A DNA stretch of 64,000 bases from Candidatus Melainabacteria bacterium (GTDB lineage Bacteria; Cyanobacteriota; Vampirovibrionia; Obscuribacterales; Obscuribacteraceae). How positions within the stretch are numbered: position 1 is the stretch's first letter; the number at the start of each line of letters is the position of its first letter. Positions 745-39,873 of this stretch are shown one piece after another. The notes under the pieces were generated by a model, which had not been told where the DNA came from, made no database searches, and worked only from the letters and a program-made list of their open reading frames with translations. The stretch spans positions 62,001-126,000 of the forward strand of contig PLZS01000048.1 of NCBI GenBank assembly GCA_003153555.1, in the 5' to 3' direction. The position numbers were made by a program, and so were the translations under genes.

Positions 745-2865
745 CTATAAATTTTTGTCCAATTGCAGCAGCACAACGCTTCGCGCTTTCAATGTGAATC
801 GCTTAGCCATTGGGAACGTTGTCTTCTTGATGCTTTCTGAAGTATCCAAAACCAGGCGCCAAAAGTCACCTTCATCATGTGAGGGTAAGACAAATGGAAC
901 GTCTTCGTGGTGCGAGTTGCAGAGGAGGAGGACGGTGTTGCCATTCACGGTTCTGCCTAAAGTATCCGTTTCCACAAGTGCACCACCCTCGAGCAAAACT
1001 CCCAGCACGCGCTTGCTTGCGTCGGTCCAATCTTTCTCTTCCATTGGCTTTCCATCAACGTTCAGCCAAAAGATGTCCTTTATGCTTCCGTCTGCGCCGG
1101 AACCTTTGAAAAATGTTTTTCTATGGATGACTAATTGCTCTTTGCGAATAGCGATCAGTTTTTGAATAAATTGAAGGAAGTCTTTGTCGGCCTCGTTCAG
1201 ATCCCATTGGTACCAACTGATCTCATTGTCCTGACAGTAGGCATTGTTATTGCCTTTTTGTGTGCGGCCAAGCTCATCTCCGCCGCTCAGCATCGGTACA
1301 CCTAAAGACAAGAACAGTAATGCCATGAAATTACGCTTTTGCTGATAACGCAATTTGATAATTTTTCCGTCGTCCGTTTCGCCCTCTGCTCCACTGTTCC
1401 AAGATATGTTGTGACTTTCGCCGTCACGGCTCTGTTCGCCGTTTGGTTCATTATGCTTTTCGTTATAGCTAACAAGATCCTGCAATGGAAATCCATCATG
1501 GCAGGTCACGAAGTTGATGCTAGCGTGAGGTTTGCGTCCACTATGTTCATACAAATCGCTGCTGCCGGTCATGCGCGATGCTACCTGCCCCATTTGACCG
1601 AAATCACCTTTAATGAATTGGCGCATGGTGTCTCGATACTTACCGTTCCATTCCGTCCACAAGACAGGGAAGTTACCAACCTGATAGCCACCTGCACCAA
1701 GATCCCAAGGCTCAGCAATCAACTTAGTCTGAGAGATGATTGGGTCTTGTTGGATGACATCGAAGAAGGCGGACAGGTTGTTAACGTCGTACAGCTCTCT
1801 AGCAAGTGCGCTGGCAAGATCAAATCTGAATCCATCCACGTGCATTTCCTGAATCCAGTAACGAAGGCTGTCCATAATCAACTGGATTACTCGCGGGTGC
1901 ACCATATTTAGTGTGTTACCGCAACCTGTGTAGTCCATGTAATACCGAGGGTCTTTCTCGACCGTTCGGTAATAAGAAAAATTATCCACTCCACGAAATG
2001 ACAAAGTCGGACCCATATGACTGCCTTCCACGGTGTGGTTATAGACGACATCAAGAATCACCTCGATGCCTGCCGCGTGAAGAGCACGCACCATCATCTT
2101 AAATTCCTGAACATTCTCGTTTGGTCCTTTCATTGACGAGAATCTTGTATCTGGTGCAAAAAAGGAAAGAGTGTTGTAGCCCCAATAATCGGTCAATCCG
2201 CGGTCTATAAAAGATCTGTTATTGACTCGATGATGAACGGGCATCAATTCTATGGCGGTGATACCAAGATTAGTAAGGTGTTCGATTACTGGCGCACTAG
2301 CCACACCGGCGTATGTGCCACGCAGTTCTTCAGGCACATCTGGGTTCAACATCGTCAAACCTTTGACATGTGCTTCGTAAATAATCGTTTTGTTCCAAGG
2401 AGTTTGCGGTAACTTGTCTTCCCCCCAGATGAAGGATGGATCGATAACCGCACATAGCGGAGCAAAGGCTGCGCTGTCTCTCGTATCCATGGAAAGATCC
2501 AAGTTTTTATGCCCGATTGTGTAGCCGAACAAGGAATCGTCCCACTTAACCGAGCGGGGAATTGATTTAGCGTAGGGATCACTGAGCACTTTGTTTGGAT
2601 TGAAACGCATGCCTTTGTCAGGATCGTAGGGACCGTAGACTCGGTATCCGTACAACTGCCCTGGCCGAATATCCCTGACAAATCCATGCCACACGTGCGC
2701 GTTATATTCGGGCAGTGTGATGCGGTGGGTTTCTTGCGTGGATTCAGCTGAGTCGAAGAGGCAAAGCTCTACCTTTGTGGCGTTTTCGGAGAAGAGGGCG
2801 AAGTTGACTCCCAATCCATCCCAAGTCGCACCTAGCGGATAGGGCTTTCCTTCTGATATCTGCAT
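745..2865 (-). CDS. glgX: glycogen debranching enzyme GlgX (GH13 isoamylase type)
   Basis: N-term YPLGATWDGLGVNFALFSENATKVELCLFD; GH13 motifs DVVYNHT, GFRFDLAS; adjacent to treY/treZ. Confidence 0.95.
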   Translation of the reverse strand: MQISEGKPYPLGATWDGLGVNFALFSENATKVELCLFDSAESTQETHRITLPEYNAHVWHGFVRDIRPGQLYGYRVYGPYDPDKGMRFNPNKVLSDPYAKSIPRSVKWDDSLFGYTIGHKNLDLSMDTRDSAAFAPLCAVIDPSFIWGEDKLPQTPWNKTIIYEAHVKGLTMLNPDVPEELRGTYAGVASAPVIEHLTNLGITAIELMPVHHRVNNRSFIDRGLTDYWGYNTLSFFAPDTRFSSMKGPNENVQEFKMMVRALHAAGIEVILDVVYNHTVEGSHMGPTLSFRGVDNFSYYRTVEKDPRYYMDYTGCGNTLNMVHPRVIQLIMDSLRYWIQEMHVDGFRFDLASALARELYDVNNLSAFFDVIQQDPIISQTKLIAEPWDLGAGGYQVGNFPVLWTEWNGKYRDTMRQFIKGDFGQMGQVASRMTGSSDLYEHSGRKPHASINFVTCHDGFPLQDLVSYNEKHNEPNGEQSRDGESHNISWNSGAEGETDDGKIIKLRYQQKRNFMALLFLSLGVPMLSGGDELGRTQKGNNNAYCQDNEISWYQWDLNEADKDFLQFIQKLIAIRKEQLVIHRKTFFKGSGADGSIKDIFWLNVDGKPMEEKDWTDASKRVLGVLLEGGALVETDTLGRTVNGNTVLLLCNSHHEDVPFVLPSHDEGDFWRLVLDTSESIKKTTFPMAKRFTLKARSVVLLQLDKNL

Positions 2866-2887
2866 AGAACTTGGCTACCTTTGAATG

Positions 2888-5800
2888 CTAACTGGTCGTT
2901 GTTATTATCGCAACTGGGAAACACTTAAAGAGGTCAGACACCTTAAGAACATCGTCTGACTTGTTTAAGATTTGCATGCTGAAATTATCAACGAGCTTGC
3001 GATCAGCCAGCTCTGGTGGTAAGACAACCGCCGTGTCGCCCCAGATGTGCTCGCCGCTTTCCGGTGTCAATATACTCCATACACCATAGCTATCCAGCTT
3101 CAGAGATTCGTCAATTTTAAGTAGCGTCGACACTAAGCGTGGTACCACTGTGATGGACCAGTTATCTTGAAATTCTCGAGCAAAAGCAATTACGTGTTGG
3201 TCGGCTGGACCTTTAACTTCTAAGGGAATGTATCGCCCTTTTGTATACAAACCTTCGTATCGTTTACGACAGGCGACAGCTACTGCTGTAATCAGAAGCT
3301 TGCATTGACCGTCGTTAATTTGATTCAAACACTTCTTCAGAAATTCGTTTTGTTGCGCAGCCTTGTCTCTCGATCCGCTTTCACCAATCCTGATGTAGTC
3401 GCTTAAGCTATCAAGCAAGCGCGTGCGCTGATTGAAGTCTACCGCACGTCGATTATCAGGATCAACCAAACTAAAATCGAAAAGTTCGTTGCCTTGATAT
3501 ATGTCAGGCACTCCCGGTGAGGTGAACTTCAGCGCCGTTTGAGCGACGCTGTTGACCAAGCCGAGAGGATAAATGGCGTTGTGAAATTGTACGAAATCAT
3601 CCAGAAATGGATTGGTTTGTGACACTGTCAAGATCTTTTCGATGAAGGAAGTCAGTGCGTTTTCATACTCGGAATTTTTGTTTACCCAACTGGTATGTGA
3701 TTTTGATTCACGTGCAGCTTTAAGTGTGTATTCGATTACTCTTTGCTTAAATGACTCGACCCATTCAGTTCCCGAGATTGCAGGCGGGCATGCGCCTACG
3801 AGAGTTTGATAAATCAAGTATTCGTCATTTGCATCGGGCATTTGTTCTTCATCAATGGTTACTTTCCTGCTTCTGTTCATGCGGGACCATTGAGATGTTT
3901 TTTGTTCCCAAATTTTTGGGATCTCGGAAAGCACCGCCAAACGTGCGCGGACGTCCTCGGATCGCTTGGTGTCGTGTGTGGACGAAGCCAGCATCTCATG
4001 CGATCTGCGCTGCTGTCTCTGCAAATTCTGGTGATGGAAACTAGCTACCGTGATACCAAACCGATCCGGCTCTCCGCCAACTTCGTTCAAGCAAACAAAT
4101 CGGTTGAATCGATAGAACAGTGTATCTTCCACGCTTTTCGCCATCACCGGTCCGGTAAATTGTTGGAATTTCATAGCAATTGTTTGGATCGCTTGTTGAA
4201 ACTGTGTCGCCGTCTCCTCGTTCAAATTGTCACCGGGTGACTCGGCTGCTTCAAGGCAGAGCACGTTGCGAACGAAATCGTAAACTTCTGGTGTCACGGA
4301 GGAACCAAATCGTTTTGCCAGTCGCACGGCCCAATCGATGTATTGTTTGGCGGTTTTGTCAACTTTCTTTGGGGTAACGTACGTTCTGTAGACAGGGAAG
4401 TAAGTGACGATGTGTCGAAGAGCTTTGCGCAATGAGTTAAGAGTGAAGTCTCTATAGTTCCAACTCATTTCTGCGATTTGACTGAGTCTGTGGGCAAGAA
4501 CGTGCAGTTCGCTAGCCAGCACCGTATCTAGTATCAGACCTTTACATTCTCGTTTCATGCTTTCATAGTCAACTACACGTCCAATAAACGCTTCATACGT
4601 TGATTCCACGGCGTGTTCGTTGTCGATGGATACGAACACGTTTAGCAAGCTATTCAAGAACTCATATCCGACTGTGCCATGAACGGCCCAATCGTCTTCT
4701 AGGTGCTCAAACGGGGCCAGAATTTTTTCCACAACTATGTATATGGGCAGTGATTCTTTACCTAGCGCCAACTCGTTGTCAGTCGGAACGGGGCGATGCA
4801 ATCGCTCGGCGGCTTTGAGTTGTAATTGCGCGAAATATGTTGCCGGATCAAACAGACCATCTGGATGATCAATTCTGAGACCGGACAACTTGCCTTCACC
4901 AATTAAATTGAAAACCAAATCATGCATCTCACCAAAAACACGCGGATCTTCCGTGCGCACGGCAGCCAGTTCGTTGATATCAAAAAATCGTCTGTAGTTA
5001 ATTTCGTCTGATGCAACACGCCAGAAGACGAGCCTGTAAGCTTGTGCTTCCAGCAAATTGTGCATTCGCTCAAATGATATTTTATCGTCCGAACGAATTT
5101 CGAACTCAAGTAAGTTTTGTTCGATAAAATTCGTGATTTCTGGATTTTGTTTGCAAAGATGAGACAAACGATTCAGTTGTACTTGTTTCTCTCGCACACG
5201 TCCAGAAAATCCCTGGCGCTCTGTATGAGACGGTAAACGGTCGAGCGCCGTTATGATGCTTTCATACTCCATCACATCGGCGTTGTTTTTCCCGAGACGC
5301 TCTTTTAAAACATCGAGTCGATTAGCCAGGATTTTAGGATAGGTGGCTGGGTTGACCGGGAATTCGTTGTCGTAATATCTGATGGCAAGAGAGCCGCTTT
5401 CGGGAGTGAATTGTAGTTTTAGATGGCCGCCTTTTAGAATTGAACCGTAAGACTCACCGAGCACTGGCAGTGTTACTTTTCCGTAAAGCTCCGGTTTAAC
5501 AGGCGTCCAGTCAATATCGAAATAGTCAGCGAATATTGATGCCGGACCGTTTTCTAGAACATCCATCCACCACTTATTCACTTTTCCGATGCCCATGTGG
5601 TTGGGCACTATATCTAGTATCAGTCCCAATCCATATGCATGCAATTCTGCAACAAATTTGTCTAACTCTTCAGGTGTGCCTATTTCAGGATTGATCATTT
5701 TATGGTCGATAATGTCATAGCCATGCATACTGCCTGGGCGAGCCTTAAGAAAAGGCGAAGCATAACAGTGGCTGACTCCCAACTTAGCCAGGTAAGGGAC

Positions 5801-7015
5801 TAGAGCGGTTGCGTCTTCAAATGTAAACTCCTTGTTGAATTGGAATCGATAGGTTGAGCTGGGCAAGACCGTGATGGGTTTTGGCTCGGATTTTGTCAGT
5901 ATTTGTTCGTTGATCCGCGGTCGTATTTTGTTTAACTCGCGGAGCAATTTTTCCAGATTTGGTTCATCCTGCAAATTCTCGATGTCCAAAGCTAGTTTGG
6001 CCCGCCAATCTGCAAGTGCAGGCTCGTTGGGTCCGCGTAAAAAGTTTATTAGCGGTAGCAGAAGAATTTTTGCATCTTCGGCTTTAATTGATTTGATATT
6101 TTCATAGTCCGTGACCATATGGATGTTGTCCTCGGATGCAACATTGGCACGATCCATCATTGCTGTAAGTTGGACACGGCTAGTTTCTGTAGATAAATTG
6201 GATTCCGCATCCTCAGTCTGGTTCGTCCAAGAATCCGGTCCCGACGCATCAAGGCTGTTCGCTTGTTGGAACACAAGCACTGAGAAATTTTGTTTGTCCA
6301 AACAAAAATCTATCAAGTTGTTCAGTTGCAGATCCGCAATCCACTGCAAGTACTCGAAATATTCGATGCGTTCTAAGTTGGACTGGGCAAATTCGGTAGT
6401 ACCTTCAGAGTCCACTTTTAAATACGCAGTCGGCCAATTCTTCCAGCCTGGGCTTTTCGCCCCTGCTGGTTCGAGCTTCTCCCTGAGCGCTTCGAACAAA
6501 GCGAATAATCGTAACTGCTCACCCATTTGATTCTGAAATGATCTGAATGCCACTGCTCTTTCTGTATTTGCAGACAGATGCACTTCGCGGAAGTGTTGAT
6601 AGCAAAGTTGCAGTACTGAAAGCTTTAGCGTTAATGAGTCAGCCAAGTTGACATATGTTTCGGCGCGCAGTGCCGCTAATTTCGCCTGGAATGCCGGTGC
6701 TAATACGTGTCTGTGGATGTCTTCTGACTCAATGTAATCAGGAACCAACTCAATATCGATGTAGGTTGGACTTATGAATGATCTGGATGCGTAAGAAATT
6801 TGGTTCCAATCTTCAGTTGAAAAAATTGGTTGAATGGGCTCGATAGAAATAACGTGCGCGTGCTTGTCGTCTGCATAAACTGCCAAATTTTTCAGGTCAG
6901 TGAAATCTCCCACGCCCCAGTTTCGTTTGGATTTAAGCGACGCTATCCGAACATGCAATCCCCAGGTCTTATTCGTGGTTAGTGGAGATGAAGTTACTGG
7001 AGCTGTGGTTCTCAA
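2888..7015 (-). CDS. treY: malto-oligosyltrehalose synthase (TreY) with N-terminal MalQ-like (4-alpha-glucanotransferase-like) extension
   Basis: From about aa 380: PSSTYRFQFNKEFTFEDATALVPYLAKLGVSHCYASPFLKARPGSMHGYDIIDH, DIVPNHMG, LRIDHPDGL, ASSTHDTKRSEDVRARL, GVPDIYQGNE (TreY). First about 380 aa resemble the N-terminal half of MalQ (NWGVGDFTDL, GWKNWPTAYL, IEYFEYLQWIADLQL). Confidence 0.92.
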   Translation of the reverse strand: MRTTAPVTSSPLTTNKTWGLHVRIASLKSKRNWGVGDFTDLKNLAVYADDKHAHVISIEPIQPIFSTEDWNQISYASRSFISPTYIDIELVPDYIESEDIHRHVLAPAFQAKLAALRAETYVNLADSLTLKLSVLQLCYQHFREVHLSANTERAVAFRSFQNQMGEQLRLFALFEALREKLEPAGAKSPGWKNWPTAYLKVDSEGTTEFAQSNLERIEYFEYLQWIADLQLNNLIDFCLDKQNFSVLVFQQANSLDASGPDSWTNQTEDAESNLSTETSRVQLTAMMDRANVASEDNIHMVTDYENIKSIKAEDAKILLLPLINFLRGPNEPALADWRAKLALDIENLQDEPNLEKLLRELNKIRPRINEQILTKSEPKPITVLPSSTYRFQFNKEFTFEDATALVPYLAKLGVSHCYASPFLKARPGSMHGYDIIDHKMINPEIGTPEELDKFVAELHAYGLGLILDIVPNHMGIGKVNKWWMDVLENGPASIFADYFDIDWTPVKPELYGKVTLPVLGESYGSILKGGHLKLQFTPESGSLAIRYYDNEFPVNPATYPKILANRLDVLKERLGKNNADVMEYESIITALDRLPSHTERQGFSGRVREKQVQLNRLSHLCKQNPEITNFIEQNLLEFEIRSDDKISFERMHNLLEAQAYRLVFWRVASDEINYRRFFDINELAAVRTEDPRVFGEMHDLVFNLIGEGKLSGLRIDHPDGLFDPATYFAQLQLKAAERLHRPVPTDNELALGKESLPIYIVVEKILAPFEHLEDDWAVHGTVGYEFLNSLLNVFVSIDNEHAVESTYEAFIGRVVDYESMKRECKGLILDTVLASELHVLAHRLSQIAEMSWNYRDFTLNSLRKALRHIVTYFPVYRTYVTPKKVDKTAKQYIDWAVRLAKRFGSSVTPEVYDFVRNVLCLEAAESPGDNLNEETATQFQQAIQTIAMKFQQFTGPVMAKSVEDTLFYRFNRFVCLNEVGGEPDRFGITVASFHHQNLQRQQRRSHEMLASSTHDTKRSEDVRARLAVLSEIPKIWEQKTSQWSRMNRSRKVTIDEEQMPDANDEYLIYQTLVGACPPAISGTEWVESFKQRVIEYTLKAARESKSHTSWVNKNSEYENALTSFIEKILTVSQTNPFLDDFVQFHNAIYPLGLVNSVAQTALKFTSPGVPDIYQGNELFDFSLVDPDNRRAVDFNQRTRLLDSLSDYIRIGESGSRDKAAQQNEFLKKCLNQINDGQCKLLITAVAVACRKRYEGLYTKGRYIPLEVKGPADQHVIAFAREFQDNWSITVVPRLVSTLLKIDESLKLDSYGVWSILTPESGEHIWGDTAVVLPPELADRKLVDNFSMQILNKSDDVLKVSDLFKCFPVAIITTTS

Positions 7016-7027
7016 TTGCGAACTCCT

Positions 7028-8917
7028 CTATTTCTCGATCAGCCAGAGCACCGACTGTGGGGGCAACGTGCCATGTTCAATTTCTCGGGAAGTGATACAG
7101 CTGGTGTTATAGAGAACCTTAAACTTGCTATTTTGCCCAAGTTTGTTGTCTGTCACTTTATGTGTTTCTTTAGTCAGGTTAGCCACCAACACCAAAATCG
7201 GCTTGGAACGGGCATTCCATTCGACAATCAGAAGTTCACCATCCAGCTTTGCTTTACCGGAATCGATTTTACTTAACAGGGGTACTATCTCTCTTTTTCG
7301 CAAGGCAAGCATAAATTTAGTCAATCGAAGGTTTTCAAAATGAGGTGCCTTATCTAAATCAGACCAATCCAATTTCGATTGCTTAAATGTTTCAACTTTG
7401 CATGGATCAGGAATGGAATCGCGCGTTTTAGGATCTGAGAATTCTGGGAAGTTAGCGAACTCGCTTCGACGTCCCTCGGTAACAAGTGGTGCCAGTTCGG
7501 GACCGAGGTCGCAGAAATACAAGAAAGAGGTTTTGCATCCCCACTCTTCTCCCATAAAGAGAAGTGGCACACTGGGAGCAAGAAGTTGAATCGTAGAGAG
7601 TGCGTTTAGAACTTCAGGATCTGAAATGGAAGCGATTCTGTCTCCAAAGGCCCGATTTCCAACTTGATCGTGATTTTGTAAAAATGACACAAAGGCTGAT
7701 GGCGGCAGATGGTCGCTTTTTTCGCCTCTGATCTCGCCATCTCTATATTCTGAAGGTTCGTCTTGATAGATAAATCCTTCCGCGAGAGCTCGTCCAAGTA
7801 GTGCTATTGCGTTTTTACCATTTTGGCTTTTTACATAGTCCGCATAATATCCCCCAGATTCACCAGTTGCTAGAACATGGTAGGCATGGTGAATGTCATC
7901 ATTCCATTGTGCGGAATACATCTTAGGTTTGTTTTCATGGTCGCGTTCTAAAAAACTGGCACCGTTAGCTTCGTTTTCGAGAACCAAGTGACGAGGTCTT
8001 AGGCGACCGGGACCCTCGGCAACTCTGTTCGCGAGTTCGATCAGAATATGCTTTTCCGAGTCGTCTTTAATGGCATGAACAGCATCAAGTCTAAGTCCAT
8101 CTATGTTGTATTCGTTTAGCCAATAGAGCGCATTCTCGATAAAGAATTCTCGTACTTCCCGACTTCCTTCAAAGTTTAACGCGGCGCCCCAAGGTGTTTT
8201 GTGTTTATCGGTGAAAAACTCTTTTGCGTAGGCATGCAAATAATTTCCTTCAGGACCGAAGTGGTTGTAAACCACATCGAGAAATACTTGCATTCCTTTT
8301 TGATGAGCCTGCTGAATTAGGGCTTTGAAATCGTTAGGGGCTCCATACTGACTTTCAGGGGCATAAGGAAGAACGCCATCATACCCCCAGCCGTATCTTC
8401 CTGGAAAATCCGCTACTGGCATTAGCTCGATCGCTGTGACACCTAAATCTTTCAAGTAGTCTAATTTGTTTGCAACGCCGGCGAAGGTACCTTCTTCAGT
8501 GAAAGTGCCAACGTGGATTTCATAGAGTACGGTTTCATTCCATGGTCGGCCATGCCAATCACCATCGCTCCATTGAAAAGAAGCTGGATCAATAATTTGA
8601 CTGCGACCGTGAACATCGTTTGGTTGATACCGGGAGGCAGGATCTGGGACTGCCAACCCATCGTCGATAATAAATTGATATTCCATTCCGGGTCTGCATT
8701 GCGCCGCGAAACTATACCAGCCACTTCCATCCGCAGCCATGCTATGGCGCGATTCTTGCGCTCCATCAAACAATGCGAGCTGAACGTTTTTGCTATTTGG
8801 CGCCCATAGGCGAAAGGAGAACGAGTTGTTAGGCTCAACTGCTGTGCCAAAACGCATGCTGTGACAGCGTTTCTTTGAGGCGACAGGACTTTCTACACTC
8901 TCTGTTTGCTGGGACAT
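7028..8917 (-). CDS. treZ: malto-oligosyltrehalose trehalohydrolase (TreZ)
   Basis: FRLWAPNSKNVQLALFDG, YEIHVGTFTEEGTFAGVANKLDYLKDLGVTAIELMPVADFPGRYGWGYDGVLPYAP, GLRLDAVHAI, FLQNHDQVGNRAFGDR. Confidence 0.95.
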   Translation of the reverse strand: MSQQTESVESPVASKKRCHSMRFGTAVEPNNSFSFRLWAPNSKNVQLALFDGAQESRHSMAADGSGWYSFAAQCRPGMEYQFIIDDGLAVPDPASRYQPNDVHGRSQIIDPASFQWSDGDWHGRPWNETVLYEIHVGTFTEEGTFAGVANKLDYLKDLGVTAIELMPVADFPGRYGWGYDGVLPYAPESQYGAPNDFKALIQQAHQKGMQVFLDVVYNHFGPEGNYLHAYAKEFFTDKHKTPWGAALNFEGSREVREFFIENALYWLNEYNIDGLRLDAVHAIKDDSEKHILIELANRVAEGPGRLRPRHLVLENEANGASFLERDHENKPKMYSAQWNDDIHHAYHVLATGESGGYYADYVKSQNGKNAIALLGRALAEGFIYQDEPSEYRDGEIRGEKSDHLPPSAFVSFLQNHDQVGNRAFGDRIASISDPEVLNALSTIQLLAPSVPLLFMGEEWGCKTSFLYFCDLGPELAPLVTEGRRSEFANFPEFSDPKTRDSIPDPCKVETFKQSKLDWSDLDKAPHFENLRLTKFMLALRKREIVPLLSKIDSGKAKLDGELLIVEWNARSKPILVLVANLTKETHKVTDNKLGQNSKFKVLYNTSCITSREIEHGTLPPQSVLWLIEK

Positions 8918-9225
8918 GGCTCGACCCTGGCTCCACGATGATTTTGATTCTTAAAAAGATACCAGATTGCCTTGTCGTACTCTAATTATTTGACTGCTTT
9001 GCAAACCACTCGTAACTTAAAGTAGACGATTCAAGAGTTAATGCCGATTCAGCGGGCTTCGGAGCAGCTTGTCATTGAGCAAAATATTGACGAGTTCGAG
9101 CTGCCTTACTGTCAGGTTTATGTCACAATTTGTGGTAGGTACTGCACCACCCATGGTGACAAGATATAAAACAATCATTGCCAACGAGTTTTAGTGAACG
9201 GTATAATGATTATGGAGAATCGCCA

Positions 9226-9381
9226 ATGAACCCTAAGTTTTTCCGAGTAGCGAGGCGTATCATCATTTTTATGATGATCTGTTATCTTGGCAACATGCTT
9301 TGGAAAAATCATACTGCGCCTCACTATGAGACTCCTTCGGGAAACATTAGGTTGGATGACAAATCCCCCTCTCCTCGGTGA
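9226..9381 (+). CDS. small single-pass membrane protein
   Basis: Internal ATG of ORF 9178..9381 preceded by GGAG; RIIIFMMICYLGNMLW hydrophobic segment. Confidence 0.45.
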   Translation: MNPKFFRVARRIIIFMMICYLGNMLWKNHTAPHYETPSGNIRLDDKSPSPR

Positions 9382-9506
9382 TTCGGACCCGGTGTCCTGC
9401 GCTTGCAATGATAATGCCTAACTCATTTCCAGCGCATGGTAGGTTTGGTTTTCAACTAATAGCGCCCAGGCTCACAAATCCTTTCCCTGGAATCTTCTAG
9501 TTATAG

Positions 9507-38091: not shown

Positions 38092-39873
38092 CTAGCGAAC
38101 TGGTGCTACGGCTTTTTGAAACTGATCAGTAGGCAATGTATTGAGCACTTCCGACCGGGACAGTCCTCCTCGTCGAGCCATGTGGATTCCGTACTTGAGA
38201 TTGTGCAGATCTTTGATGCCATGCGCGTCTGTCGAAATCACAAATTTGATTCCGCGCTTACGTGCAAGCTTGATCCAGCGAGCCTCCATGTCCAACCTGT
38301 AAGGGTCGCCGTTCACTTCAATTGCGACATTGGATTCCGCCGCAGCGTCTAACACCTCTTCTAGGCGGCACGACAACGGTGGGCGCCTGAGAACCAGCCG
38401 GCCAAGAGCATGTCCCCAAATTTTGAACTGAGGAAGGCGCATACAATGAATCAATCTTTTCGTCATTTGGTCCTCATCCATTTTCAATCTTGAGTGGATG
38501 CTGCCGATCAAGATATCGAACTTGTCCAAAACATGATCAGGATAATCCAGTGCTCCCGAGTCCAAAATATCCGATTCGGTACCGCGCAATAATTTGATCT
38601 TGACTCGTTCTTGCACTTGATCGATTTCTTCCCACTGCCGCTTTAGCTGTTCTATAGTCACTCCACCTGCATAGTGAGCAGCTGGTGAGTGGTCTGTGAT
38701 CGTTATATATTTCATACCCATGGCTTCGGCTGCCAGAGCCATTTCTTCGATGCTGTTTTTGCCATCAGAGTAAGTCGAGTGGCAATGAGTCATACCTTGA
38801 ATATGCTCAATTTCGACTAGATCCGAAAAGTCATTTCCTGAGGCTACTTCCTGCAATTCACCATTTGCTTCTCTCAACTCAGGTGGAATGTAGGGCAATC
38901 CCAGTTCCTTATAAATGTCTTGCTCTGACTGGCAGGCAATTTTCTTCGTGCCCTTAAACAGTCCCGTCACTCCGAGCCTGAGTCCTTTTCCCTTGGCTAA
39001 GGCTTGGACCTCCTCAATATGGCTGTCGGAGCCAGTTTCCATAAACTCCGCATAGGGGAATTGTTCAGAGTTCGTGATCAACAGTTTAACCCTCAGCCCG
39101 TTCGCCAGGCGTGCAACCGCCCGTGATTCTTCGCTGATTTCCATTTTGGTCACAAGAGGAAATTTTTCCAGCGCTTCAATCGCCTTGGCCGGCTCGTTTG
39201 ACGTAATGATCAGATTGATGTTCTTGATCGTTTCCTTCCACCTACGCATTGACCCTGCCACGGTCACTGAAGTTACCCCTGGTGCCCATTTGAAATAATC
39301 TGTCAGCTGCTTTGATAGGTGTCGTGCGTCGAGCAAAAGAATGCTCTCATCTTTAGTTTCGTATTCCTTAATACCTTCGAGAATTTTTTGCTGGGTCTTT
39401 TCTCCAAATCCCTTTATTTTGCTGACAGCTCCTAGATCGCATGCGGACTGAAGCTCGGCGATGCTGCTTATGCCAAGCGCGTCGTGAAGGGCTTGCACCT
39501 TTTTTGTGCTCAACCCAGGTATTTGAGAAAGCTCGATTATGCCCGGTGGGAGTTCGTTTCTCAGTTCATCGAGCAGTGAAGAGCGCCCTGTGTTATAGAG
39601 CTCAGCAATCTTCGCCGCCAGCACTTCACCGATACCTCGCACTTTAGTGAGCTGCTTATCGTCCACAATCTGCCCTAAATCCTCTACAATGCCCTCAACT
39701 GCCGCGGCACCATTTTCATAAGCACGAGCTTTGTACGGGTTCTCACCCTTCAGTTCGAGCAAGACTCCGATTTCGCGCAGAGCGTTAGCGATGGCAAACT
39801 TATCGAGCAAAAATCCCCCTGCGGTAATTGTCTCTCCTAAGACTAGACGCGGATTACTTCCACGAGTTTCCAA
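38092..39873 (-). CDS. PolX-type protein: HhH + DNA polymerase X-like domain (catalytic Asp lost) + PHP phosphoesterase domain
   Basis: HhH region VRGIGEVLAAKIAEL, IPGLSTKKVQALHDALGI; AGSMRRWKETIKNINLIIT; PHP GMTHCHSTYSDGKNSIEEMA, ITITDHSPAAHYAGG, GTESDILDSGALDY, WGHALGRLVLRRPP, IEVNGDPYRLDMEARW, ISTDAHGIKDLHNLKYGIHMARRGG. Confidence 0.92.
   Translation of the reverse strand: METRGSNPRLVLGETITAGGFLLDKFAIANALREIGVLLELKGENPYKARAYENGAAAVEGIVEDLGQIVDDKQLTKVRGIGEVLAAKIAELYNTGRSSLLDELRNELPPGIIELSQIPGLSTKKVQALHDALGISSIAELQSACDLGAVSKIKGFGEKTQQKILEGIKEYETKDESILLLDARHLSKQLTDYFKWAPGVTSVTVAGSMRRWKETIKNINLIITSNEPAKAIEALEKFPLVTKMEISEESRAVARLANGLRVKLLITNSEQFPYAEFMETGSDSHIEEVQALAKGKGLRLGVTGLFKGTKKIACQSEQDIYKELGLPYIPPELREANGELQEVASGNDFSDLVEIEHIQGMTHCHSTYSDGKNSIEEMALAAEAMGMKYITITDHSPAAHYAGGVTIEQLKRQWEEIDQVQERVKIKLLRGTESDILDSGALDYPDHVLDKFDILIGSIHSRLKMDEDQMTKRLIHCMRLPQFKIWGHALGRLVLRRPPLSCRLEEVLDAAAESNVAIEVNGDPYRLDMEARWIKLARKRGIKFVISTDAHGIKDLHNLKYGIHMARRGGLSRSEVLNTLPTDQFQKAVAPVR

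Follow-up and report, generated by a model that had tools for sequence, protein, structure and literature searches.

A noncanonical PolX with a probably inactive polymerase site and an intact PHP nuclease domain in a genome of the order Obscuribacterales

We analyzed a 64,000-nucleotide stretch of contig PLZS01000048.1 from a Candidatus Melainabacteria bacterium (this whole stretch is called "the window" below), which carries on its minus strand a gene for a member of the PolX family of DNA repair proteins. We conclude, with a probability of about 0.9 for the explanation as a whole, that this gene encodes a noncanonical PolX, that is, a PolX-derived 3'-end nuclease with a dead polymerase site, in which the two catalytic metals could not be held. 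This is the best reading because the catalytic triad of the palm is lost, the deoxynucleoside triphosphate (dNTP) pocket is degraded, the loss is conserved among orthologues, the palm evolves faster than the rest of the protein, and proteins of the same class have been studied biochemically (PMC9226535). The same points support a preliminary description of this DNA, made from the sequence alone, which had proposed such a nuclease.

The class is already established, and the window PolX is a further clear example rather than a discovery. Prostova et al. (2022) defined noncanonical PolX proteins, which make up 27.5% of prokaryotic PolX; their altered triads come in 302 variants, and the PHP domain is intact in 98% of the altered proteins (PMC9226535). 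The PolX proteins of Deinococcus radiodurans (triad AEE) and D. gobiensis (ARE) have strong Mn-dependent 3'-5' exonuclease and no polymerase activity, and the D203A change in Bacillus subtilis PolX abolishes only the polymerase (PMC9226535). Palm/fingers deletions are found in many but not all noncanonical PolX proteins, whose main cluster in the published phylogeny comprises Bacteroidetes and Deinococcus-Thermus (PMC9226535). A 2026 survey agrees with this picture (PMC12926913).

The polX gene and its product

The open reading frame at 38092-39873 (minus strand; 593 codons counted from a TTG at 39873) encodes a full-length bacterial PolX. Its product scores 443 bits against the NCBIfam PolX model NF006375 (cut-off 426), and its alignments to the PolX proteins of Thermus thermophilus (3b0y, E 4e-107) and D. 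radiodurans (2w9m, E 1e-83) span the entire protein. A single chain holds the 8 kDa, HhH, palm, thumb and C-terminal PHP domains, the architecture of bacterial PolX (PolX1); a Pfam scan of the protein gives no match to the palm, which is nonetheless present in the alignment and in the structure model. The preliminary description gave the translation correctly, but it probably placed the start, at 39873, too far upstream. We favour the TTG at 39810, which would give a protein of 572 amino acids, because AGGGGGA lies 3-4 bases upstream of it and the matches of many orthologues begin there (at residue 20-24 of the longer reading); this start is likely rather than certain, since the same-genus relatives already align from residue 15-16. 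Residue numbers below follow the 593-codon reading from TTG 39873, except those of the model's strands, which follow the 572-amino acid form. The features are as follows:

38092..39810, minus strand: noncanonical PolX gene from its likeliest start (AGGGGGA, starts of orthologue matches, NF006375); the open frame continues to TTG 39873
39583..39804, minus strand: N-terminal 8 kDa / HhH_8 domain, residues ~24-97 (Pfam HHH_8, E 2.4e-16)
39364..39534, minus strand: second HhH region, residues 114-170 (Pfam HHH_5, E 1.3e-12)
39046..39291, minus strand: palm with a putatively dead triad, residues 195-276 (ungapped alignment to T. thermophilus PolX; strands of the model)
39214..39222, minus strand: N-I-N at the D-x-D position, residues 218-220 (alignment)
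39085..39087, minus strand: Lys263 at the position of the third catalytic Asp (alignment)
38866..39045, minus strand: thumb (Pfam naming) with degraded dNTP pocket, residues 277-336 (Pfam DNA_pol_B_thumb, E 4.3e-16)
38110..38802, minus strand: C-terminal PHP nuclease domain, residues 358-588, with nine metal ligands and a basic DNA path (Pfam PHP, E 2.2e-13)

A promoter and terminator scan gave nothing above chance that bears on the polX gene.

The palm triad and the nucleotide-binding pocket

The three acidic palm residues by which a canonical PolX polymerase is recognized are absent from the window PolX. Aligned without gaps to T. thermophilus PolX, it has N218 (AAC, 39222-39220), N220 (AAT, 39216-39214) and K263 (39087-39085) at the three catalytic Asp positions, exactly the replacements that had been read from the sequence alone, whereas all 19 canonical PolX proteins aligned here have DDD. 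The palm has no Asp anywhere from its GS motif up to the TGS motif (about residues 204-282), which leaves nothing from which a shifted triad could be built; this disposes of the possibility, left standing by the preliminary description, that a D-x-D and a third Asp are displaced within the palm. The dNTP pocket is altered as well. The window PolX has TGSDSHI where canonical proteins have TGSK-HN, Ile stands at the Asn position that matches Pol beta N279, Asp replaces the basic Lys, and M-E takes the place of the steric-gate Y/H-F. The palm is not shortened, its segment being 76 residues in both the window and T. thermophilus proteins.

An AlphaFold2 (AF2) model, built from eight window and relative sequences, has a mean predicted local distance difference test score of 84 and a predicted template modelling score (pTM) of 0.67. 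It preserves the palm sheet (strands 179-185, 197-204, 220-226, 230-235 and 240-246), in which residues 218 and 220 share a strand and residue 263 lies on a different one, and it superposes on DNA-bound T. thermophilus PolX (3au6) with a template modelling score (TM) of 0.80. The domain arrangement it predicts should not be over-read, given the pTM and a TM of only 0.63-0.71, with large root mean square deviations, to other PolX crystals.

The PHP domain

All nine PHP metal ligands are intact (H363, H365, H395, E433, H460, H488, E519, D549 and H551; HHHEHHEDH), as the motifs noticed earlier had indicated. Conversion to B. subtilis PolX numbering requires a constant shift of 24, then 23, and agrees with the ligand numbers in PMC6616362. 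Six further PHP residues of the B. subtilis enzyme are needed for nucleolysis, F440, R469, R474, N498, R503 and K545 (PMC6616362), and five of these are kept in the window PolX, four as identical residues (R492, R497, N521 and R526) and K545 as R568; the F440 position is considered below.

Relatives and constraint

Of 53 genomes examined from this order, 18 encode a PolX of the window type and one more has a broken copy; the protein of Cyanobacteria bacterium SZAS-4 is 83% identical to that of the window. The 18 proteins form a clade of 24, with support of 100/100, together with five sequences from Acidobacteriota and one from Sorangium. None of the 24 has the DDD triad and all of them keep the PHP HHHEHHEDH set, while the first, second and third triad positions are occupied by 11, 8 and 6 different residues, respectively. 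Since every member lacks DDD and the replacements vary, the loss is not an error in a single genome. Whether orthologues share N-I-N and Lys had been raised as a check, and the answer is divided: loss of the triad is common to the whole clade, but N-x-N is confined to the window PolX (NNK) and two same-genus relatives (NNS and NNN), in neither of which is the third residue Lys. The Sorangium protein is acidic throughout (EDE) and might count as canonical under the acid rule of PMC9226535; its dNTP pocket is degraded as well.

The palm shows the pattern of a domain freed from catalysis, in contrast to the PHP domain, which is under strong constraint. Among pairs whose PHP domains are 55-65% identical, the palms share 28% identity in the clade versus 50% in canonical pairs, and the ratio of palm to PHP nonsynonymous divergence (dN) is 2.6-6.8 in close pairs of the clade versus 1.8-2.2 in canonical pairs. 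We compared dN between domains rather than dN/dS, since most pairs have reached saturation at synonymous sites.

The window's genome (about 87% complete) has no other full-length PolX match, and so no second, canonical copy was found there. A same-family relative (G304) has both a canonical PolX (L068, DDD) and a noncanonical one (L063, VQE), a pair that could serve to compare the roles of the two types. The broken copy mentioned above is split over three frames (L020, L028 and L031 in G007), which suggests recent loss (or assembly errors), and small C-terminal PolX fragments are present in G016 and G026. Two proteins of about 300-320 amino acids (L022 in G030 and L029 in G013) match only the 8 kDa/HhH part of PolX and continue into a different C-terminal region. 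Searches of plasmid and phage collections yielded only distant PolX proteins (<60% identity), and some on rhizobial plasmids are noncanonical (DAW, DAK and AAR). One of these (L075, AAR, on a Mesorhizobium sp. B2-1-1 plasmid) lies directly downstream of ligD, a tighter link to end joining than is seen in the window.

Evolutionary history

In a tree computed without the palm columns, the altered-triad sequences require three state changes, and the clade of the window PolX is placed apart from the Deinococcus and rhizobial sequences. At least two separate losses of the polymerase are thus the likeliest history. A single loss followed by transfer remains tenable, because forcing all altered sequences except L045 into one clade is not significantly worse (approximately unbiased (AU) test, p 0.077). 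The tree is without Bacteroidetes, and it represents the main published noncanonical cluster only by D. radiodurans, which has a long branch. A more specific history is conceivable but rather unlikely: the PolX proteins of non-photosynthetic Cyanobacteriota, Acidobacteriota and Myxococcota would descend, through transfer, from one ancestor that had lost the polymerase independently and gave rise to a distinct end-processing nuclease tied to Ku and LigD, with the palm in a new non-catalytic role.

Proposed function and alternatives

Direct observation covers the altered residues and how far they are conserved, the completeness of the PHP site, and the Ku and LigD genes of the genome. Beyond these, the Pol beta-like core probably still folds and binds gapped or broken DNA through its 8 kDa and HhH domains, and it is plausible, as the preliminary description proposed, that the dead palm would serve only for DNA binding. 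Lacking two-metal catalysis, such a core would add no nucleotides. By analogy with the Deinococcus and Bacillus enzymes the PHP domain would be the remaining activity, a metal-dependent (probably Mn2+) trimming of 3' ends, possibly with incision at apurinic/apyrimidinic (AP) sites and removal of 3'-phosphates. The most likely role would be 3'-end cleaning in break repair, perhaps alongside the Ku/LigD end joining of its own genome.

On contig C27 of that genome a Ku gene adjoins a LigD gene that lacks the phosphoesterase domain, and contig C189 carries another LigD that has it. Within the order, Ku is present in 16 of the 18 genomes with this PolX versus 15 of the 35 without it (Fisher p 0.0013, shared ancestry ignored), and the same association holds across bacteria (PMC9226535). 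Some observations weigh against the proposed function. Neither ku nor ligD lies near polX within the 64-kb window. Genome size and common descent both confound the association, which weakens to p 0.014 when only genomes of 5.5 Mb or larger are compared and does not reach significance below that size. At the edge of the PHP domain, moreover, the B. subtilis F440 position is Leu463 in the window PolX, and since F440A lowered the nuclease activity of the B. subtilis enzyme (PMC6616362), the efficiency of the nuclease or its recognition of AP sites may differ.

Three other explanations were considered, all of them much less probable than a PolX-derived nuclease. The dead palm might be re-used, as a regulatory nucleotide or metal site or for protein docking, rather than drifting; Glu occupies the third site in 12 of the 24 clade members and is frequent at the other two, and no variation is seen at G207 or R210. 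The triad positions are nevertheless highly variable and the palm is the fastest-evolving domain, which is the expectation under relaxed constraint, and we regard re-use as very unlikely. Marginally less credit still is due to weak residual polymerase or nucleotidyl transferase activity, with the metal bound by other residues. The retained palm fold and G-S-x-R-R motif would fit it, and one-nucleotide extension by D. radiodurans PolX was once reported, but that activity was not reproduced and has been attributed to contamination (both in PMC9226535); the Asp-free palm with Lys at the third site, the degraded pocket and the lack of conservation at the triad positions among orthologues all argue against it.

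A decaying pseudogene or sequencing artefact is the least probable explanation of all. The broken and fragmentary copies in three genomes are what such decay would leave behind, and several genomes of the order are without the gene, but the reading frame is intact in the window and in most relatives, N-x-N is seen independently in close relatives, and the PHP ligands are complete throughout the clade. Furthermore, PHP dN is only 0.03-0.08 between close relatives whose synonymous sites are near saturation.

Comparison with other PolX proteins

The window PolX resembles the noncanonical proteins of PMC9226535 in its altered triad (one to three catalytic acids are replaced in that class, all three here), in its substituted dNTP-binding residues (a hydrophobic residue at the N279 position, and loss of the basic Lys and steric gate), in its full PHP site and N-terminal 8 kDa domain, and in belonging to a genome with Ku and LigD. 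Unlike the Deinococcus and alphaproteobacterial members it has an untruncated palm, which does not exclude membership since only "many" members have such deletions, and its clade is separate from the Deinococcus and rhizobial proteins in the tree (subject to the AU result above). With canonical PolX (B. subtilis YshC/PolX and T. thermophilus) it shares the order 8 kDa, HhH/fingers, palm, thumb and PHP, the nine PHP ligands and the overall fold, but it lacks the catalytic Asp triad and the pocket Asn and Lys. Like PolX-type proteins with a deleted polymerase domain, it would be a PHP nuclease without polymerase function; unlike them, it retains the polymerase domain, which is predicted to fold.

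The triad NNK is not found in the main text of PMC9226535, nor is the non-photosynthetic Cyanobacteriota lineage named there. Our analysis extends to another order what has been published for many bacterial PolX proteins, namely that the conserved function is the PHP nuclease rather than DNA synthesis; it adds quantitative support in the form of an unconstrained palm next to a constrained PHP domain, as well as the likely occurrence of at least two losses, the co-occurrence with Ku/LigD and the probable start at 39810. The automatic label "DNA polymerase/3'-5' exonuclease PolX" is probably half wrong for the whole clade of 24.

Other observations

Both same-genus relatives encode a divergent Ku-like open reading frame of about 225-230 amino acids (L084:1121-1795, minus strand; L086:939-1628, plus strand) flanked on one side by a malto-oligosyltrehalose-type gene and on the other by a GGDEF gene. 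Both neighbours are conserved in the window, and the corresponding gap (8918-9506) is without the Ku-like frame. The adjoining minus-strand run of genes at 745-8917 resembles, in sequence, genes for glycogen-debranching and trehalose-synthesis enzymes (TreX/TreY/TreZ type).
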